Shown in pieces: positions 2,046 through 61,022 of a stretch of DNA of 64,000 bases. The stretch comes from Burkholderiales bacterium (GTDB taxonomy: Bacteria; Pseudomonadota; Gammaproteobacteria; Burkholderiales; Burkholderiaceae_E). A program made the translations under genes and the position numbers. The stretch spans positions 1-64,000 of the forward strand of contig CANKWX010000004.1 of NCBI GenBank assembly GCA_947487165.1, in the 5' to 3' direction. Below the pieces are notes generated by a model. That model made no database searches. It saw only the letters and a program-made list of their open reading frames with translations, and was not told where the DNA came from. Numbering within the stretch: the stretch's first letter is position 1; every line of letters begins with the position of its first letter.

Positions 2046-2720
2046 TCATGTGTTGCCTTCGAAAAGCCTCAGGACCGGCCATCCTCGCGTCACGGCGGTG
2101 GCATGCAGGACCGGATCGGGATTGGTCGCGACCGGATCGGTCACCTGCTCGAGCAAGGCGATGTCGTTGCGCGAATCGCTGTAGAACCAGCTGCGCTCGA
2201 AGCCATCGAAGCGCTGGCCGATCGAGCCCAGCCACTCGTGCGTGCGCACGATCTTGCCCTCACGAAACGAGGGCGTGCCCAAAGGTCGTCCGGTGAATTG
2301 CCCGTTGACTTCTTCGAGGGTGGTCGCCACCAGATGGTCGATGCCAAAGGCGCGGGCGATCGGCCCGGTCACGAAGGCATTGGTGGCGGTGACCAGGGCG
2401 ATCAGATCGCCGCGCGCGCGATGCCGGTCGACGAGTTCGCGGGCCTGATCGGTGATCGTGGGGGTGATGACTTCGGCCATGAACTGGGCATGCCAGCGCT
2501 CGAGGGTGTCGCGCGGGTGGGCTGCCAGTGGCGCCAGCTGAAACTGCAGGAATTCGGTGATATCGAGCGAGCCGGCCTTGTAATGCTCGTAGAAGCGGTT
2601 GTTCTCGCGTTCGTAGTCGTCGCCGTCGAGGACGCCCAGCCGAGCCAGGAATCGGGACCACTCGTAGTCGCTGTCGATAGGCAGCAGGGTGTTGTCGAGA
2701 TCGAAAAGTGCCAGATGCAT
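2046..2720 (-). CDS. HAD-superfamily hydrolase, SerB/HAD-IB type
   Basis: Predicted phosphatase of 224 residues. The N-terminal motif FDLDNTLLP supplies the nucleophile and acid/base Asp. A later SDSRNDIALLE segment supplies the metal-binding acid of motif IV, and a VTATNAF stretch fits motif II. The family resembles phosphoserine phosphatase, but the substrate cannot be told. I prefer the internal ATG (MHLALFDLDNT) to the ATG 12 bp upstream, because homologues begin close to the DxD motif and because the upstream ATG sits inside a -10-like TAGAAT (2731-2736) that also contains the hda stop codon. It lies between hda and pcnB in the common betaproteobacterial order. Confidence 0.85.
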   Translation of the reverse strand: MHLALFDLDNTLLPIDSDYEWSRFLARLGVLDGDDYERENNRFYEHYKAGSLDITEFLQFQLAPLAAHPRDTLERWHAQFMAEVITPTITDQARELVDRHRARGDLIALVTATNAFVTGPIARAFGIDHLVATTLEEVNGQFTGRPLGTPSFREGKIVRTHEWLGSIGQRFDGFERSWFYSDSRNDIALLEQVTDPVATNPDPVLHATAVTRGWPVLRLFEGNT

Positions 2721-2733
2721 ATCGGTGCCCATT

Positions 2734-3540
2734 CTACGGCATGTCCTCTGACCCGCTTGCCGCAGGTTCAGGGGGCTCAGGAGGTTCAGGGGGCGTCGCC
2801 TGCAGGAACTCGCGCACCAGCGGCACAGTGAGGGCCCGTTTGCGGGCCAGAGCGAAACAGTCGAGCCGGTCGATCATGGCACGCAACTGGCCGAGATCGC
2901 GCGCCGTGCGAGTCATCAGCCAGGGGATCAGGTCGGCGCTGGCGGTGATGCCGCGCTCGGCCAGCGTGACCGCCAGCGCCCGGGCAATATCCTGGTCGCT
3001 CAGGCGATGCAGCTGAAAGACCAGCCCCCAGCCCAGGCGGGTGGCCAGCTCCGGGATCACCGGCAGTTGCATCGGGGCGCTCGACCCGGCGCTCACCATC
3101 GCACGCACCATCGCGCTCACCACCGTTGTGGCGGCCTCGGCCTGGATGGCATTGAACAGATGAAAGGCGCTTTCCTGGCGTGCTGCGTCGAGCCGATCGC
3201 AGTCGTCGACCAGCCACAGGCTGATCGACGGGTCGTAGTCGAAGTCCGGCAGATCGCTCGATGGCGTCAGTAATCGGGCGCGATGGGTCGTGCCCGCGCT
3301 CCCGCTCGCCAGGGCATGCAGCAGATGACTGCGGCCGCTGGCCGGCAGGCCCCACAGATAAACGAAGCGCGAGCCGGTTGCTGATCCGATGTCGCGCGCC
3401 GGCTCGTTCTGGTCGGGATGACTGCCACTGGCTGTGAGCAGGCGGCGCAGCGAGGCCAGCGCTTCGAGGTTGTCGCCTGCCACGAAGTTGTCGAAGGTCG
3501 GTGGCGGTGGTGCGCCGAGATCGAGGGTGAGCTGGTTCAA
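2734..3540 (-). CDS. hda: DnaA-homologous regulator Hda
   Basis: Hda binds the beta clamp and promotes hydrolysis of DnaA-bound ATP, which limits re-initiation. The protein begins NQLTLDLG, a clamp-binding-type motif, followed by PPTFDNFVAGDN as in DnaA domain III. A degenerate P-loop region reads LWGLPASGRSHLLHA and a Walker B-like LWLVDDCDRL follows. The only start codon that fits homologues is TTG at 3538-3540 (268 residues). The longer frame upstream would extend into purM. No clear Shine-Dalgarno is visible, so the start is uncertain. The C-terminal tail has low-complexity Pro/Glu repeats (PPEPPEPPEP). Confidence 0.85.
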   Translation of the reverse strand: MNQLTLDLGAPPPPTFDNFVAGDNLEALASLRRLLTASGSHPDQNEPARDIGSATGSRFVYLWGLPASGRSHLLHALASGSAGTTHRARLLTPSSDLPDFDYDPSISLWLVDDCDRLDAARQESAFHLFNAIQAEAATTVVSAMVRAMVSAGSSAPMQLPVIPELATRLGWGLVFQLHRLSDQDIARALAVTLAERGITASADLIPWLMTRTARDLGQLRAMIDRLDCFALARKRALTVPLVREFLQATPPEPPEPPEPAASGSEDMP

Positions 3541-3564
3541 GACGATGGCGCGGGGACTGACCGT

Positions 3565-3588
3565 TACAATGCGAGCTGACCCATTGTA
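3565..3588. promoter_or_regulatory. Divergent -10-like hexamers between hda and purM
   Basis: The plus strand has TACAAT at 3565-3570, oriented towards purM. The minus strand has TACAAT at 3588-3583, oriented towards hda. The two lie within the 77-bp gap between the divergent starts. I see no good -35 hexamer for either, so this is only a candidate divergent promoter pair. Confidence 0.35.
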
Positions 3589-3617
3589 TCGGTCCGCACC
3601 GACGGCCCGCACCCAGC

Positions 3618-4697
3618 ATGAGTGATCAGCACGACGGCACTGCGGCAAACGCTTCAGCTCCCCTTTCCTACAAGGATGCCGGTGTCGACATCGATGCCGG
3701 CGATGCCCTGGTCGAGCGCATCAAGCCGATGGCGCGTCGCACACTTCGCGAGGGGGTGCTCACCGGCATCGGCGGTTTCGGCGCGCTCTTCGAGGTGCCC
3801 AAGCGCTATCGCGAGCCGGTGCTGGTGTCCGGCACAGACGGGGTCGGCACCAAGCTGCGGATGGCTTTTGCGCTCGGACGCCATGACACCGTGGGCATCG
3901 ATCTGGTGGCGATGAGCGTCAACGACATCCTGGTGCAGGGCGCCGAGCCGCTCTTTTTCCTCGACTATTTCGCCTGCGGCAGGCTTGATGTCGATACCGC
4001 TGCGCGGGTGGTCGGCGGTATTGCAGCCGGCTGCGAACAGGCCGGCTGCGCGCTGATCGGCGGCGAGACCGCCGAGATGCCCGACATGTATCCCGATGGC
4101 GAATACGACCTTGCAGGCTTTGCGGTCGGTGCAGTCGAGAAGTCCCTGATCATCACCGGTCGCTCGATCGTGCCTGGCGATGTGGTGATCGGATTGGCCT
4201 CCAGCGGCATCCATTCCAACGGCTATTCGCTGGTTCGCAGAATCATTGAGCGGGCCCATGGTGCGCTCGATGCGCCGGCCTTGCAGACCGACTTCGATGG
4301 CCGCAGCTTTGCCGACGCGGTCATGGCGCCGACCCGAATCTACGTCAAACCGGTGCTGTCGCTGATTGCGGCGGTGCCGGTCAAGGGCATTGCCCATATC
4401 ACCGGCGGCGGGCTGGTCGAGAATGTGCCGCGGGTGCTGCCCGATGACTGTCAGGCCATCCTGCATCGCGATGCCTGGACAATGCCGCCGCTCTTCGGCT
4501 GGCTGCAGCGCAATGGCCAGGTCACTGACGCCGAGATGCATCGCGTCTTCAACTGCGGTATCGGCATGGTGATTGTGGTGGCGCCGGGCGATGCCCCGGG
4601 TGCGCTCGCGCATCTGCAGGCCGCGGGCGAGACCGCCTCGGTGATCGGCAATATTGCCGCGCGAGCGGCAGGTGATGCGCCGACGATCGTGATCTGA
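3618..4697 (+). CDS. purM: Phosphoribosylformylglycinamidine cyclo-ligase (AIR synthetase)
   Basis: Closes the imidazole ring of aminoimidazole ribonucleotide, step five of purine synthesis, using ATP. The 359-residue length is normal. Clear family segments are [13 protein letters not shown] near the N-terminus, [46 protein letters not shown], and [13 protein letters not shown]. It is divergent from hda, an arrangement common in Burkholderiales, and 14 bp upstream of tamA. Confidence 0.97.
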
Positions 4698-30922: not shown

Positions 30923-32848
30923 ATGACTGATCCCGCTCAATCCGCTCACGCCCAAGCCGAACATCCCAACCAGTTCGCGCTGATGCGGCAGCGCCGTTTT
31001 GCGCCCTTCTTCTGGACGCAGTTTTTCGGCGCCGGCAATGACAATCTCTTCAAATTTGCTTTCACCGTGCTGGTCACTTATCAGCTGCAGGTCAGCTGGT
31101 TGCCGCCCGAGCAGGCCGGGCTGGTGATCGGTGCGCTCTTCATCCTGCCTTATCTGCTGTTCTCGGCCACCAGCGGCCAACTCGCCGACAAGCTCGAAAA
31201 GCGTCGTCTGTTCCGGCTGGTCAAGGACCTCGAGATTGTGATCATGCTGATTGCGGCCTGGGGTTTTTTCACCGCCAATGTGCCGGCGCTGCTGATCTGC
31301 GTTTTCCTGATGGGTCTGCATTCGACCCTCTTCGGCCCCGTCAAATATGCCTATCTGCCCCAGCATCTGTCGGAGCAGGAGCTCACCGGCGGCAATGGCA
31401 TGGTCGAGATGGGCACCTTCGTGGCGATCCTGCTCGGCAATATTGCCGGGGGTCTCTTGATCGCGATTCCGGGCGAGGGGGTGCGCTATGTCGCGATCGG
31501 CTGCATCGCGGTTGCGGTGATCGGCCGTCTTTGCGCGCAGTTCGTGCCGTTGTCGCCGCCGACCGATCCGGGTCTGGTGATCAACTGGAATCCGTTCACC
31601 GAAACCTGGCGCAATCTGAAGCTTGCGCATGAAAACCTGGTGGTGTTTCGCTCGCTGCTCGGCATCTCATGGATGTGGTTCTTCGGTGCGGTCTTTCTGT
31701 CGACCTTTCCGGCCTTCTCCAAGGATGTGCTCCATGGCGACGAGCAGGTCGCCTCGCTGCTGCTGGTGGTGTTTTCGGTTGGCATTGCGATTGGCTCGCT
31801 GCTGTGCGAGAGCCTGTCGCGCCGGCATGTCGAGATCGGTCTGGTGCCGCTGGGCGCGATCGGCATGTCGCTGTTTTCGCTCGATCTCTATTTTTCGGTG
31901 CGCAGCCTGCCGGTGGTCGAGATGCAGTCGATCGGCCAGTTTGTGGCCGAGCCGCGCCACTGGCGAGTGCTGTTCGATCTCGGCATGCTGGCGCTTTCTG
32001 CCGGGCTCTACAGCGTGCCGATGTATGCGCTCATCCAGATGCGCTCGCAGCCCTCGCATCGCGCCCGCATCATCGCGGCCAACAACATTCTGAATGCGAT
32101 CTTCATGATTGCGAGTTCGGTGATTGCCGGCGCGCTGCTGGGCGCCGGCTTCAGCATTCCGCAGATCTTTTGCCTGCTGGCCATTGCCAACGCGGTCGTC
32201 GCTTTCTATATTTTCATGCTGGTGCCGGAGTATCTGCTGCGATTCATCGCCTTTGTGGTCTCGCGGCTGATCTATCGCTTCAAGGTTCAGGGCGAGCACA
32301 ACATTCCGGTGTCGGGCGCGGCAGTGGTCGTCTGCAATCATGTGAGCTTCATGGACGCGGTGCTGGTCATGGCGGCAAGCCCGCGTCCGATCCGCTTCAT
32401 CATGGATTATCAGATCTTCGCAATCCCGGGTTTCGGTGCGGTCTTCAGGCTGGCCAAGGCCATTCCGATTGCGCCGCAGCGTGAAGATGCCCGTACCTAT
32501 GAGGCGGCCTTCGAGACCGCGCGCACCGTGCTTGCCGAGGGCGATCTGCTCGGCATTTTTCCGGAGGGCGGCATCACCCGCGATGGTGAGCTCAAGGAGT
32601 TTCGCGGCGGCGTGATGAAGATCCTCGAGGCCGACCCGGTGCCGGTGGTGCCAATCGCGCTGCATAACCTCTATGGGTCGTATTTTTCGCGCATCGAAAA
32701 CGGCAAGGCCATGGTCAAGCCTTTTCGGCGTGGAATTTTCAATCGGGTGGCGCTGGTGGCCGGTCCGCCGGTGGCGCCCGATCAGGTCTCGCCGCAAGGA
32801 CTGCATGACGAAGTGGCCCGGCTGCTCGCCGAGCCGGTCAGGCACTGA
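30923..32848 (+). CDS. Fused lysophospholipid transporter (LplT-like MFS) and PlsC-type acyltransferase
   Basis: Two-domain protein of 641 residues. Residues about 15-430 are an MFS carrier related to LplT (FFWTQFFGAGNDNLFKFA, the family start). Residues about 440-640 are a PlsC acyltransferase with NHVSFMD (the HX4D catalytic motif, near 472) and FPEGGITRDG (near 545). It probably flips lysophospholipid inward and re-acylates it, as LplT plus Aas do in E. coli. The acyl-ACP synthetase domain of Aas is absent. A TACACT hexamer lies at 30838-30843. Confidence 0.9.
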   Translation: MTDPAQSAHAQAEHPNQFALMRQRRFAPFFWTQFFGAGNDNLFKFAFTVLVTYQLQVSWLPPEQAGLVIGALFILPYLLFSATSGQLADKLEKRRLFRLVKDLEIVIMLIAAWGFFTANVPALLICVFLMGLHSTLFGPVKYAYLPQHLSEQELTGGNGMVEMGTFVAILLGNIAGGLLIAIPGEGVRYVAIGCIAVAVIGRLCAQFVPLSPPTDPGLVINWNPFTETWRNLKLAHENLVVFRSLLGISWMWFFGAVFLSTFPAFSKDVLHGDEQVASLLLVVFSVGIAIGSLLCESLSRRHVEIGLVPLGAIGMSLFSLDLYFSVRSLPVVEMQSIGQFVAEPRHWRVLFDLGMLALSAGLYSVPMYALIQMRSQPSHRARIIAANNILNAIFMIASSVIAGALLGAGFSIPQIFCLLAIANAVVAFYIFMLVPEYLLRFIAFVVSRLIYRFKVQGEHNIPVSGAAVVVCNHVSFMDAVLVMAASPRPIRFIMDYQIFAIPGFGAVFRLAKAIPIAPQREDARTYEAAFETARTVLAEGDLLGIFPEGGITRDGELKEFRGGVMKILEADPVPVVPIALHNLYGSYFSRIENGKAMVKPFRRGIFNRVALVAGPPVAPDQVSPQGLHDEVARLLAEPVRH

Positions 32849-58934: not shown

Positions 58935-59807
58935 TCAGGGCGAGGTCTGCTTGAAGGTATCGCAGGCGCCGGGCTGTCCCGACTTCATGCCAGCGGCGAA
59001 CCAATAGCGGCGCTGTTCACCCGATCCGTGGGTGAAGGCATCCGGCACCACCACGCCTTGCGAGCGCTTCATCATCTTGTCGTCGCCGATCTGCGAGGCG
59101 GCATTCAGGCCGGCCTCGATGTCGCCGCGATCGAGCCAGTTGCGGGCCTGCTGCGAATGATGCGCCCACACGCCGGCATAGCAGTCGGCCTGCAACTCGA
59201 GGCGCACCGACAACTGATTGGCCTGCCGCTCGCCGGCGCGTTGCTGCATCGATTGCACCTGTTTCATGGTGCCCAGCAGGTTCTGCACATGATGGCCGAC
59301 TTCGTGCGCCACCACATAGGCCTGCGCGAAATCGCCGGGCGATGCGAACTGCTGCTTCAGCATGCGATAAAAGCTCAGGTCGATATAGACCGTCTGATCG
59401 TTGGGGCAGTAGAAAGGACCGGCAGCCTTTTGCCCGGTGCCGCAGGCGGTGGGCGTGACGCCATCGAAGATCACCAGTTTGGGAGGGCGGTATTGCTGAT
59501 TCGCCTTTTTGAAGACGTCGGCCCAGACATCTTCGGTGCTGGCGAGGATGATCGAGGTGAACTTGCCGCCGGTATCGGCGACCGGCCCGGTCTGGCCTTG
59601 CACCTGCTGGGGTGTGCTGGGGCTGCCGAGCTGGCTGACACCCTGGACCAGGCCGAGCGCGACCATGGGGTTGATGCCGAGTATCCAGCTGGCCAGCAGT
59701 GCAATACCGATACCGACGATGCCCAGGCCACCGGCCTTGCCGCCGGGCATCTTCATCCCCCTTCGGTCTTCCACATTGCTGCTTTGTCGTCCATCTTCCC
59801 AGCGCAT
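58935..59807 (-). CDS. YpfJ-family neutral zinc metallopeptidase
   Basis: Membrane-anchored protease of 290 residues. One N-terminal transmembrane helix (GIVGIGIALLASWIL), then a soluble domain with the zinc motif HEVGHHVQNLLG and the downstream third ligand region RLELQADCYAGVWAHH. Cys pairs (ACGTG, YCPND) suggest a periplasmic domain. AGGGGA precedes the ATG. Substrates unknown. Confidence 0.9.
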   Translation of the reverse strand: MRWEDGRQSSNVEDRRGMKMPGGKAGGLGIVGIGIALLASWILGINPMVALGLVQGVSQLGSPSTPQQVQGQTGPVADTGGKFTSIILASTEDVWADVFKKANQQYRPPKLVIFDGVTPTACGTGQKAAGPFYCPNDQTVYIDLSFYRMLKQQFASPGDFAQAYVVAHEVGHHVQNLLGTMKQVQSMQQRAGERQANQLSVRLELQADCYAGVWAHHSQQARNWLDRGDIEAGLNAASQIGDDKMMKRSQGVVVPDAFTHGSGEQRRYWFAAGMKSGQPGACDTFKQTSP

Positions 59808-59894: not shown

Positions 59895-60183
59895 GGGCCT
59901 CTAGCTCATGCTTGGTTAGAGCAGCGGACTCATAGCGCAAGTTGTGCCATACGATTCGGAAACGGCGTATGGGATGGTGTCAAAGTCGGTGAAACCTAAG
60001 TGCATCTCCTGCATAAGGCAACGCCGAGCCAAGCTTCGATGCCTGCGCATCGTTGAAGGTGTAGAGACTTGACGGCACCCACCTAAGTCGGACAGATAAG
60101 GTGAAGGCAAAGTCCAGGGAGTGGCGAAAGCCACACAAACCCGAATCCGTTGGTGCCGTGTTCGACTCACGGGAGGCCCACCA
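59895..60183 (+). tRNA. tRNA with CAU anticodon (probably tRNA-Ile2), split by a group I intron
   Basis: Exon 1 is 59895-59933 and exon 2 is 60144-60183. Joined, they give a cloverleaf: acceptor GGGCCTC/GAGGCCC (7 bp), D-stem GCTC/GAGC, anticodon stem GCGGA/TCCGT (one G-U), loop CTCATAA with anticodon CAT, variable TGGTG, T-stem CCGTG/CACGG, T-loop TTCGACT, discriminator A and encoded CCA. The intron sits after the third anticodon base. By analogy with Azoarcus I call it tRNA-Ile (C34 modified by TilS), but elongator tRNA-Met is not excluded. Odd points: the D-loop is 11 nt (ATGCTTGGTTA), and position 48 is G instead of the usual C. Confidence 0.9.
59934..60143 (+). ncRNA. Self-splicing group I intron (IC3 type) in the tRNA anticodon loop
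   Basis: A 210-nt intron without an ORF. The guide GTG (59944-59946) pairs with exon CAT (C-G, A-T, T-G wobble) to give P1. P2 is CCATACG (59947-59953) / CGTATGG (59966-59972) capped through a GAAA loop (59959-59962). P4 pairs TCGGTG with CGCCGA. P6 is CGATGC/GCATCG. P9 is GTGGC-GAAA-GCCAC (60121-60134). The terminal G (60143) is the omega-G. Conserved blocks such as GTGTAGAGACT, GACGGCACCC and AGTCCAGGGAGTGG match the Azoarcus tRNA-Ile intron from memory, while P2, P5, P6 and P8 differ with pairing kept. Confidence 0.93.
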
Positions 60184-60242: not shown

Positions 60243-61022
60243 TCAGTACCTTGGCATCACCAGGATCTGCTCGAACGGCGACTTCGAAATCGAGACGGCG
60301 CCTTGGTGCGTGCTGACCGCAAGCGCAATGAAGGCAAGCATGACCGATATCGATGTGGTGCCCAGTGTCAGGGCAAGTGCGTTGGACCGTCGGTTGCCGA
60401 GATGGACGATCGCTATCCCGAACTGCGCGAGCAATCCCAGAATGAACGTGCACAACCATCTCGCGCTGTCGACATCCTGATGCACAAGGCTTAGCCGCGT
60501 CAGCCGCGCCGCCGTCACGCTTTCAATCGCTCGGGTCAGTGTGTACAGCGCCGGCGAAGGGCTTTCAAGCTGCGAGATCACCGCCACCGTTGTGTGCAAT
60601 AGCTGCGAAAACTTCTGATCGGTTTCGGGCGAGTCCTTTGACTGCGCAATCAGCGGCCATTCGACCTCGATGACCGAGGCGGCATAGGCTCGGGCCAGTT
60701 CGTGCAAGCCCTCCTTTTTCAGATCCGGAAACGCGTCGACATAGGCGATATAAGCGGCGATCGCAACGCTCTCCTTTTTAACTGCATCCGAATTGCTCTG
60801 GAAGTTGGACCATACCGAGGCTCCCAGGAAGGCTGCGGTCAGCGCGAACATGGTCAATGCCACCATGAATAAAGGCGCCACTACCCCGCCAAAGCTCGCC
60901 ACGAAAGTGCGTGTCCGCCGGTCAAAGCAGAGCAGGTGAATCATCACGGCGCTCAGGGCATAAATTGCAAAGATCGTGCTGAACACGATCGGGTCGTCGG
61001 CATGCAAAAAGGTGGAGATCAT
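60243..61022 (-). CDS. DUF4239 (bestrophin-like) membrane protein
   Basis: Protein of 259 residues with four hydrophobic helices: one near residue 15-35, one near 45-75 (GVVAPLFMVALTMFALTAAF), and two close together near the end (LCTFILGLLAQFGIAIV and TSISVMLAFIALAV). The central soluble part has FGASVWSNF-type and LARAYAASVIEVEWP segments typical of the DUF4239 family, possibly a channel related to bestrophins. No Shine-Dalgarno is evident before the ATG. It is convergent with the tRNA gene. Confidence 0.78.
   Translation of the reverse strand: MISTFLHADDPIVFSTIFAIYALSAVMIHLLCFDRRTRTFVASFGGVVAPLFMVALTMFALTAAFLGASVWSNFQSNSDAVKKESVAIAAYIAYVDAFPDLKKEGLHELARAYAASVIEVEWPLIAQSKDSPETDQKFSQLLHTTVAVISQLESPSPALYTLTRAIESVTAARLTRLSLVHQDVDSARWLCTFILGLLAQFGIAIVHLGNRRSNALALTLGTTSISVMLAFIALAVSTHQGAVSISKSPFEQILVMPRY

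Follow-up and report, generated by a model that had tools for sequence, protein, structure and literature searches.

The locus described here raises the question of how a bacterium obtains a working tRNA from a gene that is split by a 210-nt insertion, and of how such an insertion arrives and why it is kept. A sequence-only reading of the window (the whole stretch of 64,000 nt that was analysed) had proposed a CAU tRNA gene at 59895-60183 interrupted by a 210-nt group I intron, and had predicted that gene callers would usually miss it. ARAGORN in its default mode indeed reports no tRNA in the window; once introns were allowed it recovered the gene at exactly these coordinates, with the intron after the anticodon, and once joined the exons form a complete cloverleaf, with CAU as its anticodon and an encoded CCA, as had been proposed. 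Taking all lines of evidence jointly, the best explanation, to which we assign a probability of roughly 0.93, would be a group I intron that is spliced from pre-tRNA-Ile2 and was gained within the window's genus, with an integrative element as its likely vehicle. The features of the locus are given below; R1 is a covariance model built from 45 other loci, none of them from the window's genus.

58935..59807, minus strand: putative neutral zinc metallopeptidase gene, upstream neighbour (Pfam PF04228, E 1.1e-111)
59895..59933, plus strand: 5' exon of tRNA-Ile(CAU), ending with the anticodon CAT (ARAGORN, introns allowed)
59931..59946, plus strand: P1, exon CAU 59931-59933 with guide GUG 59944-59946 (invariant in 52 of 52 rows with letters)
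59934..60143, plus strand: group I intron, 210 nt, omega-G at 60143 (model R1, 222.9 bits; covariation)
59947..59972, plus strand: P2, CCAUACG/CGUAUGG with GAAA loop (two-sided changes in 6 of 7 pairs; 93.3% of cells paired)
59976..60079, plus strand: P3, 59976-59981 with 60074-60079, enclosing P4-P6 (100% of cells paired)
59986..60059, plus strand: P4-P5-P6 domain, P6a 60037-60042 with 60047-60052 (alignment)
60066..60114, plus strand: P7, guanosine-binding helix, 60066-60070 with 60110-60114 (5 pairs, 100% of cells paired)
60080..60103, plus strand: P8, 60080-60083 with 60100-60103 (invariant in 53 rows)
60118..60141, plus strand: P9.0 and P9, the latter 60121-60125 with 60130-60134, GAAA loop (alignment)
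60144..60183, plus strand: 3' exon of tRNA-Ile(CAU), CCA encoded (ARAGORN)
60243..61022, minus strand: Bestrophin-like gene, downstream neighbour (Pfam PF14023)

Detection and structure of the intron

The Rfam group I model, which the sequence-only reading had named as the means of detection, did not find the intron, but a fitting model did. RF00028 gave no match at the window at E ≤ 1, and none at E ≤ 10 to locus L299, which is the window gene. The same model scored the Azoarcus-type control locus L308 at 49.1 bits, below its cut-off of 50, and thus appears insensitive to introns of this type; judging the intron by Rfam alone was rejected for this reason. R1, in turn, matches the window intron with 222.9 bits (E 7.9e-80), its sole match in the window up to E 10, and has a single match in the window's own genome, where 150 of 468 first-look candidates were scored. 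Folding energy was likewise set aside as a yardstick, as the signal is weak (z -1.73, with 14 of 200 shuffles folding equally well) and the P3/P7 pseudoknot lies outside the method. According to the available text of PMC6125680, it seemed unlikely that one alignment, Rfam's for instance, could represent how diverse group I introns are. The only match in the window at the Rfam gathering cut-offs is Bcj11 (Burkholderia RNA 11) at 31611-31732 on the plus strand (86 bits, E 2.3e-13).

All the parts expected of a small intron of this kind were found in the alignment and with R1, including the helices, the GUG guide, the GAAA loops and the terminal G. The group I core is present, with P3-P8, P4-P6, and P7 crossing P3. 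Compensated changes were seen in P3 (two-sided in 2 of 6 pairs in the alignment) and also in P7. The 5' splice site carries a U.G wobble in P1 in 52 of 52 rows with letters, and the last intron base is G. All cells of P9 are paired, with two-sided changes in 4 of its 5 pairs, and 91.5% of those of P9.0. The earlier claim that pairing has been kept by covariation is borne out over 53 sequences: 29 of 55 pairs change on both sides and 95.4% of cells pair, and two-sided changes occupy 294 cells, as against 76 on average in shuffles and no more than 53 in slid controls, the last comparison being favoured by the fact that the structure was drawn from the window sequence.

The closest described counterpart is the pre-tRNA-Ile intron of Azoarcus sp. 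BH72, which is represented here by L308, a locus from the same order with an intron of 205 nt that equals the Azoarcus ribozyme, as given in the available part of PMC8890501, at all 190 unambiguous positions. Between the window intron and that of L308, 169 of 204 aligned bases agree (83%), so the description "Azoarcus-like" is apt. Both sit at the same site of the same tRNA and share the guide GUG, the helices, and GAAA loops in P2 and P9; the window intron differs in its length (210 against 205 nt), in the loop of P1, and in pairs changed on both sides in P2, P5a and P6a. Six pairs in all differ on both sides from the Azoarcus ribozyme of PMC8890501, as far as shown there, with pairing intact, in line with the earlier reading of P2, P6 and other stems: two in P2, one in inner P2, and one each in P5a, P6a and P7. 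Two further window pairs, one in P5 and one in P5a, are unpaired in the Azoarcus row as aligned. The P7 change concerns the inner pair 60070/60110, which is U-A in the window and A-U in Azoarcus, and which across the alignment is A-U in 43 of 53 rows and U-A in 10. With its small size, the lack of a P5abc extension, and its site in a tRNA anticodon loop (alignment and R1), the window intron has the features of the Azoarcus family, and we take both introns to belong to class IC3.

tRNA identity and dependence on splicing

Exon 1 is identical to that of L308 at 39 of 39 positions, exon 2 at 35 of 40 (5 differ), and the spliced window gene would be identical to an intronless CAU tRNA found on a Cupriavidus plasmid. 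From the exon sequences, the window tRNA is read as tRNA-Ile2. In this tRNA, TilS converts C34 to lysidine, after which it reads AUA. TilS is encoded in the window's own genome with a score above the cut-off; it also matches in all 14 control genomes and is present in most bacteria.

The own genome is a 3.78 Mb draft in 140 contigs, 98% complete, with 38 tRNA matches, of which ARAGORN reads 37 genes and 36 anticodons in the stretches fetched for them. Two other CAT tRNA genes are, by reading of their sequences, the initiator and the elongator Met, and no second tRNA-Ile(CAU) was found in the 140 contigs of the draft; splicing must therefore work, if the cell reads AUA. A like dependence is suggested by a sample of 399 genomes of the order, in which 11 match the intron pattern, 310 the intact pattern, 78 neither and none both. 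The two patterns are mutually exclusive (Fisher p 4e-8), and as they never occur together the intron-bearing tRNA appears to depend on removal of the intron. The small RNA that splits the one tRNA-Ile(CAU) gene found in the draft genome very probably cuts itself out.

The pathway that we propose is established group I chemistry, here carried over to the window gene. The guide GUG would pair with the exon CAU in the pre-tRNA, an exogenous guanosine bound in P7 would attack after the U of the U.G pair, and the freed 3' OH of the exon would then attack after the terminal G, joining the exons as CAU|AAUCC. TilS would finally convert C34 to lysidine, so that the window tRNA could read AUA.

An intron decayed to a remnant in a pseudogene tRNA, with AUA read by another tRNA, would also account for the lack of an Rfam match in the window and for an outer P8 that looks weak by eye in the window's clade. 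We regard this as very improbable, since the exons fold as a full cloverleaf, P3, P7 and P9 are fully paired with the change in P7 compensated, the gene is kept in four other genomes of the genus at 96-98% identity, and no other tRNA-Ile(CAU) was found in the own draft genome.

A group I intron in tRNA-Ile2 is of a known kind, and the window copy is one more member. The tRNAscan-SE 2.0 paper (PMC8450103, available text) reports such introns for Acidovorax and Burkholderia; they resemble the window intron in their tRNA, their occurrence in betaproteobacteria and in being missed by a tRNA finder, but are given there as the cause of missing predictions, without sequences, structure or element context in that text. 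Cyanobacteria and plastids have group I introns in tRNA-Leu(UAA) and tRNA-fMet (PMC4033280, available text), alike in lying in the anticodon loop and unlike in the tRNAs affected.

Distribution and origin

The intron had been called rare, which is true per genome (11 of 399 in the order by exact pattern) but less so overall, as a scan of genome contigs with a core pattern found at least 121 places. Among the matches listed, 64 lie in CAU tRNAs, mostly betaproteobacterial according to the record titles, and 12 are without a tRNA call. In the window's genus, five of 12 genomes have the intron, four have the gene without it, and three yielded neither by the same search; the other four intron-bearing genomes are 96-98% identical to the window gene. 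In the family, the intron pattern was found in five of 74 genomes, all of the window's genus, the intact pattern in 48, and neither in 21.

In all nine genus genomes compared, with or without the intron, the zinc metallopeptidase gene precedes the tRNA by no more than 2 kb, although in two intronless genomes it is about 1 kb more distant; its identity is 93-96% inside the intron clade and 75-77% to the other genus genomes. Downstream, the Bestrophin-like gene follows the tRNA in three of the five intron-bearing genus genomes, and matches to the downstream genes are confined to the intron clade (not all of its members) except for one short match to genome G003, a comparison for which the four intronless contigs offer 0.3, 2, 4 and 10 kb.

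Because the intron pattern was found in none of the 62 genomes of the other 15 family genera, a gain within the window's genus would be the simplest origin, a conclusion that rests on exact patterns, with 21 of the 74 family genomes matching neither. Most simply, the intron entered a resident gene in an ancestor of the window's clade. In the intron tree the four of the five genus introns that were included form one clade (99/96), whose neighbour, at moderate support (91/85), is L085, itself among the loci that show the displaced tRNA half described below. The likely vehicle, seen in relatives and not in the own genome, would be an integrative element carrying an intron-bearing replacement tRNA-Ile.

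The converse, an intron ancestral to betaproteobacteria and lost in most lineages, would fit its scattered occurrence (10 of the 159 genera sampled in the order) and the insertion site, which is the same in nearly all CAU loci (ARAGORN splits L093, L149 and L164 otherwise). We consider this improbable in view of the 62 pattern-free genomes from the rest of the family, of intron-bearing genes in relatives that sit on integrative elements, and of an intron tree that departs from the families. The tree implies three changes in Methylophilaceae and four in Comamonadaceae, of which the starred branches force at least two and at least three, respectively; many branches are weak, and the bootstrap had not settled.

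Displaced tRNA halves in relatives

In 32 of the 64 CAU intron loci among the matches listed, a further copy of exon 1, without the rest of the gene, precedes the gene on the same strand at a median distance of 157 nt (136-311). The match reaches the 5' splice site, or at most 10 bases past it, in 31 of these 32 loci. Such a half was found in none of 40 intronless tRNA-Ile(CAU) loci picked from the intact-pattern places of the order and family (Fisher p 6e-9); downstream of one of them, L349, lies a fragment of exon 2. Tandem repeats such as CTTACACACCGCTTACACA, which look like the arm sites of integrases, occur upstream in 24 of 64 intron loci and in 0 of 40 intronless controls; across all tRNA types the repeat pattern occurs in 21 of 39 spacers, and so is common and not universal. 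Among non-CAU intron loci, an upstream match was seen in 7 of 45: it covers the whole of exon 1 in L070 and L114 (Phe and Lys, respectively, as raw ARAGORN calls), and extends little beyond the D arm in the tRNA-Arg loci L105, L118, L130, L134 and L169 (raw ARAGORN calls). No upstream match was found in 109 viral loci with a tRNA call.

Separate 3' halves were seen as well. In eight genomes chosen because a second exon 2 had already been seen, a separate 3' half lies downstream on the same contig and strand in six; in G467 it is on another contig, and G473 has a 22-nt fragment and a second complete intron-bearing gene. The clearest case is the Comamonas MAG G461, where a 5' half of type B (273959) is followed by an intron-bearing gene of type A (274155-274435) and, at 297968, by a 3' half of type B; since the tRNA type of the complete gene is not that of the halves, the element must have brought the whole gene. 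This stretch (L358/L359, G461:C1:271000-300500) and L360-L363 all interrupt tRNA-Ile(CAU) at its anticodon loop: the two halves of the host gene have been pushed apart, and within the left end of the insert lies a replacement tRNA that is complete and carries the intron. At ten right-end candidates, CTCAT forms the five bases before the half in seven, two follow the end of another intron, and one does neither. The CTCAT before the halves indicates that the ends share CTCATAA, the 7-nt anticodon loop, and this shared recombination core is the loop that the intron interrupts.

Two simpler accounts of the upstream halves were rejected. Tandem duplication does not fit, as the sequence before the half is unlike the spacer where read by eye, and the two tRNA types of G461 rule it out as well. 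A mini-element of spacer, exon 1 and intron fails since in L084 and G461 the complete gene differs from the half in both exons.

The window itself has none of these traces. No tRNA half was found in the window or on to contig base 104,000, including the 800 nt upstream of the gene, no upstream half in the genus loci L080, L097, L100 and L133, and no spacer repeat at the window locus. A pair of related loci shows how such a clean state can arise, which for the window is our inference: in L082 the host flank runs straight into the intron-bearing gene, and behind the corresponding flank of its relative L121 (89% over 298 nt) come a half and a spacer.

Integrases and cargo of the elements

Locus L360, which represents the element of Limnohabitans B9-3, encodes at 2457-3878 a tyrosine recombinase of 473 aa (PF00589) with a homologue of 35% identity in L358. 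With these two as queries, both taken from loci with halves, an integrase match was found downstream in 10 of the 32 loci that have a half and in none of the 32 that lack one; the ten include both query loci and two short fragments (L087 and L090), and without the query loci the counts are 8 of 30 against 0 of 32 (p 0.002). The match starts about 100 nt past the tRNA in seven loci. Many loci end soon after the tRNA, so the absence of an integrase says little. No integrase was seen among the scanned proteins of L361 (10 proteins), L362 (3) and L363 (10). Cargo includes type I restriction-modification, AbiE-like and Fic proteins (L363), AIPR (L362) and an MmeI-like protein (L360), and L361 holds ordinary metabolic and regulatory genes. 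At the window, no integrase is present among eight neighbouring proteins scanned, and a search of the own genome at E ≤ 1e-40 found nothing homologous to the L360 integrase.

In the order sample, 13 of 399 genomes match the integrase at E ≤ 1e-40. Five of these matches (L371-L375) lie by a tRNA-Ile(CAU), and the other eight by other tRNAs or none visible. The integrase of L373 is beside an intron-bearing tRNA-Ile(CAU). L374 has two host 5' halves upstream and a replacement tRNA-Ile (about 640-1500 on the integrase strand, ~98 nt before the integrase) whose group I-like intron is of another kind and precedes the anticodon (ACT|intron|CATAA). L371 and L375 each have a host half and an intronless replacement tRNA-Ile(CAU) with the same loop and a changed anticodon stem. 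The stem of the usual target, GGACTCAT, is kept in exon 1 of 63 of the 64 CAU intron loci among the matches listed. In L372 the integrase lies by an uninterrupted tRNA-Ile with an unchanged stem. Ahead of the intact gene this locus also has a tandem array, and its 159-bp unit opens with nt 1-19 of tRNA-Ile.

These elements can be compared with the genomic islands described in the available text of the Islander paper (PMC4383910), which resemble those of the window's relatives, though not the window, in their tyrosine integrase, their crossover in the anticodon loop, and a tRNA fragment at the far end. In the usual island, according to that text, the gene is regenerated by a fragment in attP, whereas the elements of the relatives push apart the two halves of the host gene and have, within their left end, a full replacement gene with the intron. 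The word "intron" is absent from PMC4383910. Group I introns are known in the T loop of tmRNA genes (PMC11915505), whose available text notes no link to integrases, and among the open-licence papers listed, no title or opening of an abstract described integrative elements with an intron-bearing replacement tRNA.

A possible role of the intron in the elements

The position of intron-bearing genes at the edge of mobile DNA in some relatives suggests a reason for the spread of the intron. Elements that split tRNA-Ile need a replacement that is not itself a target, and either an intron in the loop or another stem would serve. On this basis we propose, tentatively and at slightly less than even odds, that the intron has been maintained and spread in elements as a shield against recombination, and that bacteria keeping it, perhaps including the window's clade, are immune. 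Elements with a tyrosine integrase would recombine at the 7-nt loop CTCATAA, splitting the resident tRNA-Ile into two displaced halves, and would bring a full tRNA gene in its place, with a self-splicing intron inside the CTCATAA of that gene. The integrase would be unable to use the interrupted loop, and the RNA would still be made whole. A bacterium keeping the intron gene after loss of the element would then be immune to such elements, and the window copy may be the footprint of one from the past.

The upstream halves might instead be ordinary scars of tRNA islands, with the intron incidental in the anticodon loop, an account that we judge possible but doubtful. Islands with a crossover centred on the anticodon are common, judging from the available text of PMC4383910; the replacement tRNAs of L371 and L375 have no intron; and in L372 the tRNA-Ile next to an integrase of the same family is uninterrupted and keeps its stem, which tells against any strict rule. 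An incidental intron fits poorly, however, with halves in 32 of the 64 intron loci among the matches listed and in 0 of 40 intronless ones, and with the halves of one tRNA type that flank a complete gene of another in G461, which shows that the element carried an entire gene. Also against it are the changed stems of the intronless replacements in L371 and L375, and the intron of L374, which is of another kind and sits elsewhere in this loop.

Related introns in other records

In viral contigs (IMG/VR), four of 119 pattern places lie in CAU tRNAs (L195, L231, L251 and L258). The phage records L054, L311 and L312 have the intron in tRNA-Leu. In L311 (uncultured phage LR756511, 408660-410510), the group I-like intron of tRNA-Leu(UAA) is 700 nt long and contains an ORF in which an HNH-like motif was seen by eye; in L312 (Agrobacterium phage Atu_ph07, 112257-113921), the intron in tRNA-Leu(UAA) is 278 nt long, and the record has no tRNA feature there. 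Among plasmids, L053 (Tritonibacter mobilis) has a group I intron in a tRNA that RF00028 scores at 34.1 bits, below its cut-off, and whose anticodon ARAGORN reads as Ile(tat) but by eye may be TGT; L052 (Comamonas aquatica pB1A) retains the 3' part of a tRNA-Ile intron and a worn exon 2, without the 5' part, near an IS3 family transposase. Two intron-bearing tRNA-Ile genes on contig CAIYZI010000323 (L060 and L135) share a 5' flank and differ in their introns and 3' exons, and one of them looks chimeric. Two record titles look wrong: L058, titled Akkermansia muciniphila, is a Limnohabitans-like intron locus, and the intron gene of L100, titled Bordetella parapertussis, matches the window's genus (G010).

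Conclusions

The window gene was missed by ARAGORN in default mode and by Rfam, though an essential tRNA appears to depend on its intron. It has been an open question by what means introns that lack an endonuclease gene move, and what keeps them in the anticodon loops of tRNAs, and the relatives of the window offer a testable answer: the introns ride on integrative elements whose recombination core is the very loop that they interrupt. If this is true, a self-splicing intron would serve as protection from site-specific recombination, and intron-bearing tRNA genes would mark both past elements and present immunity.
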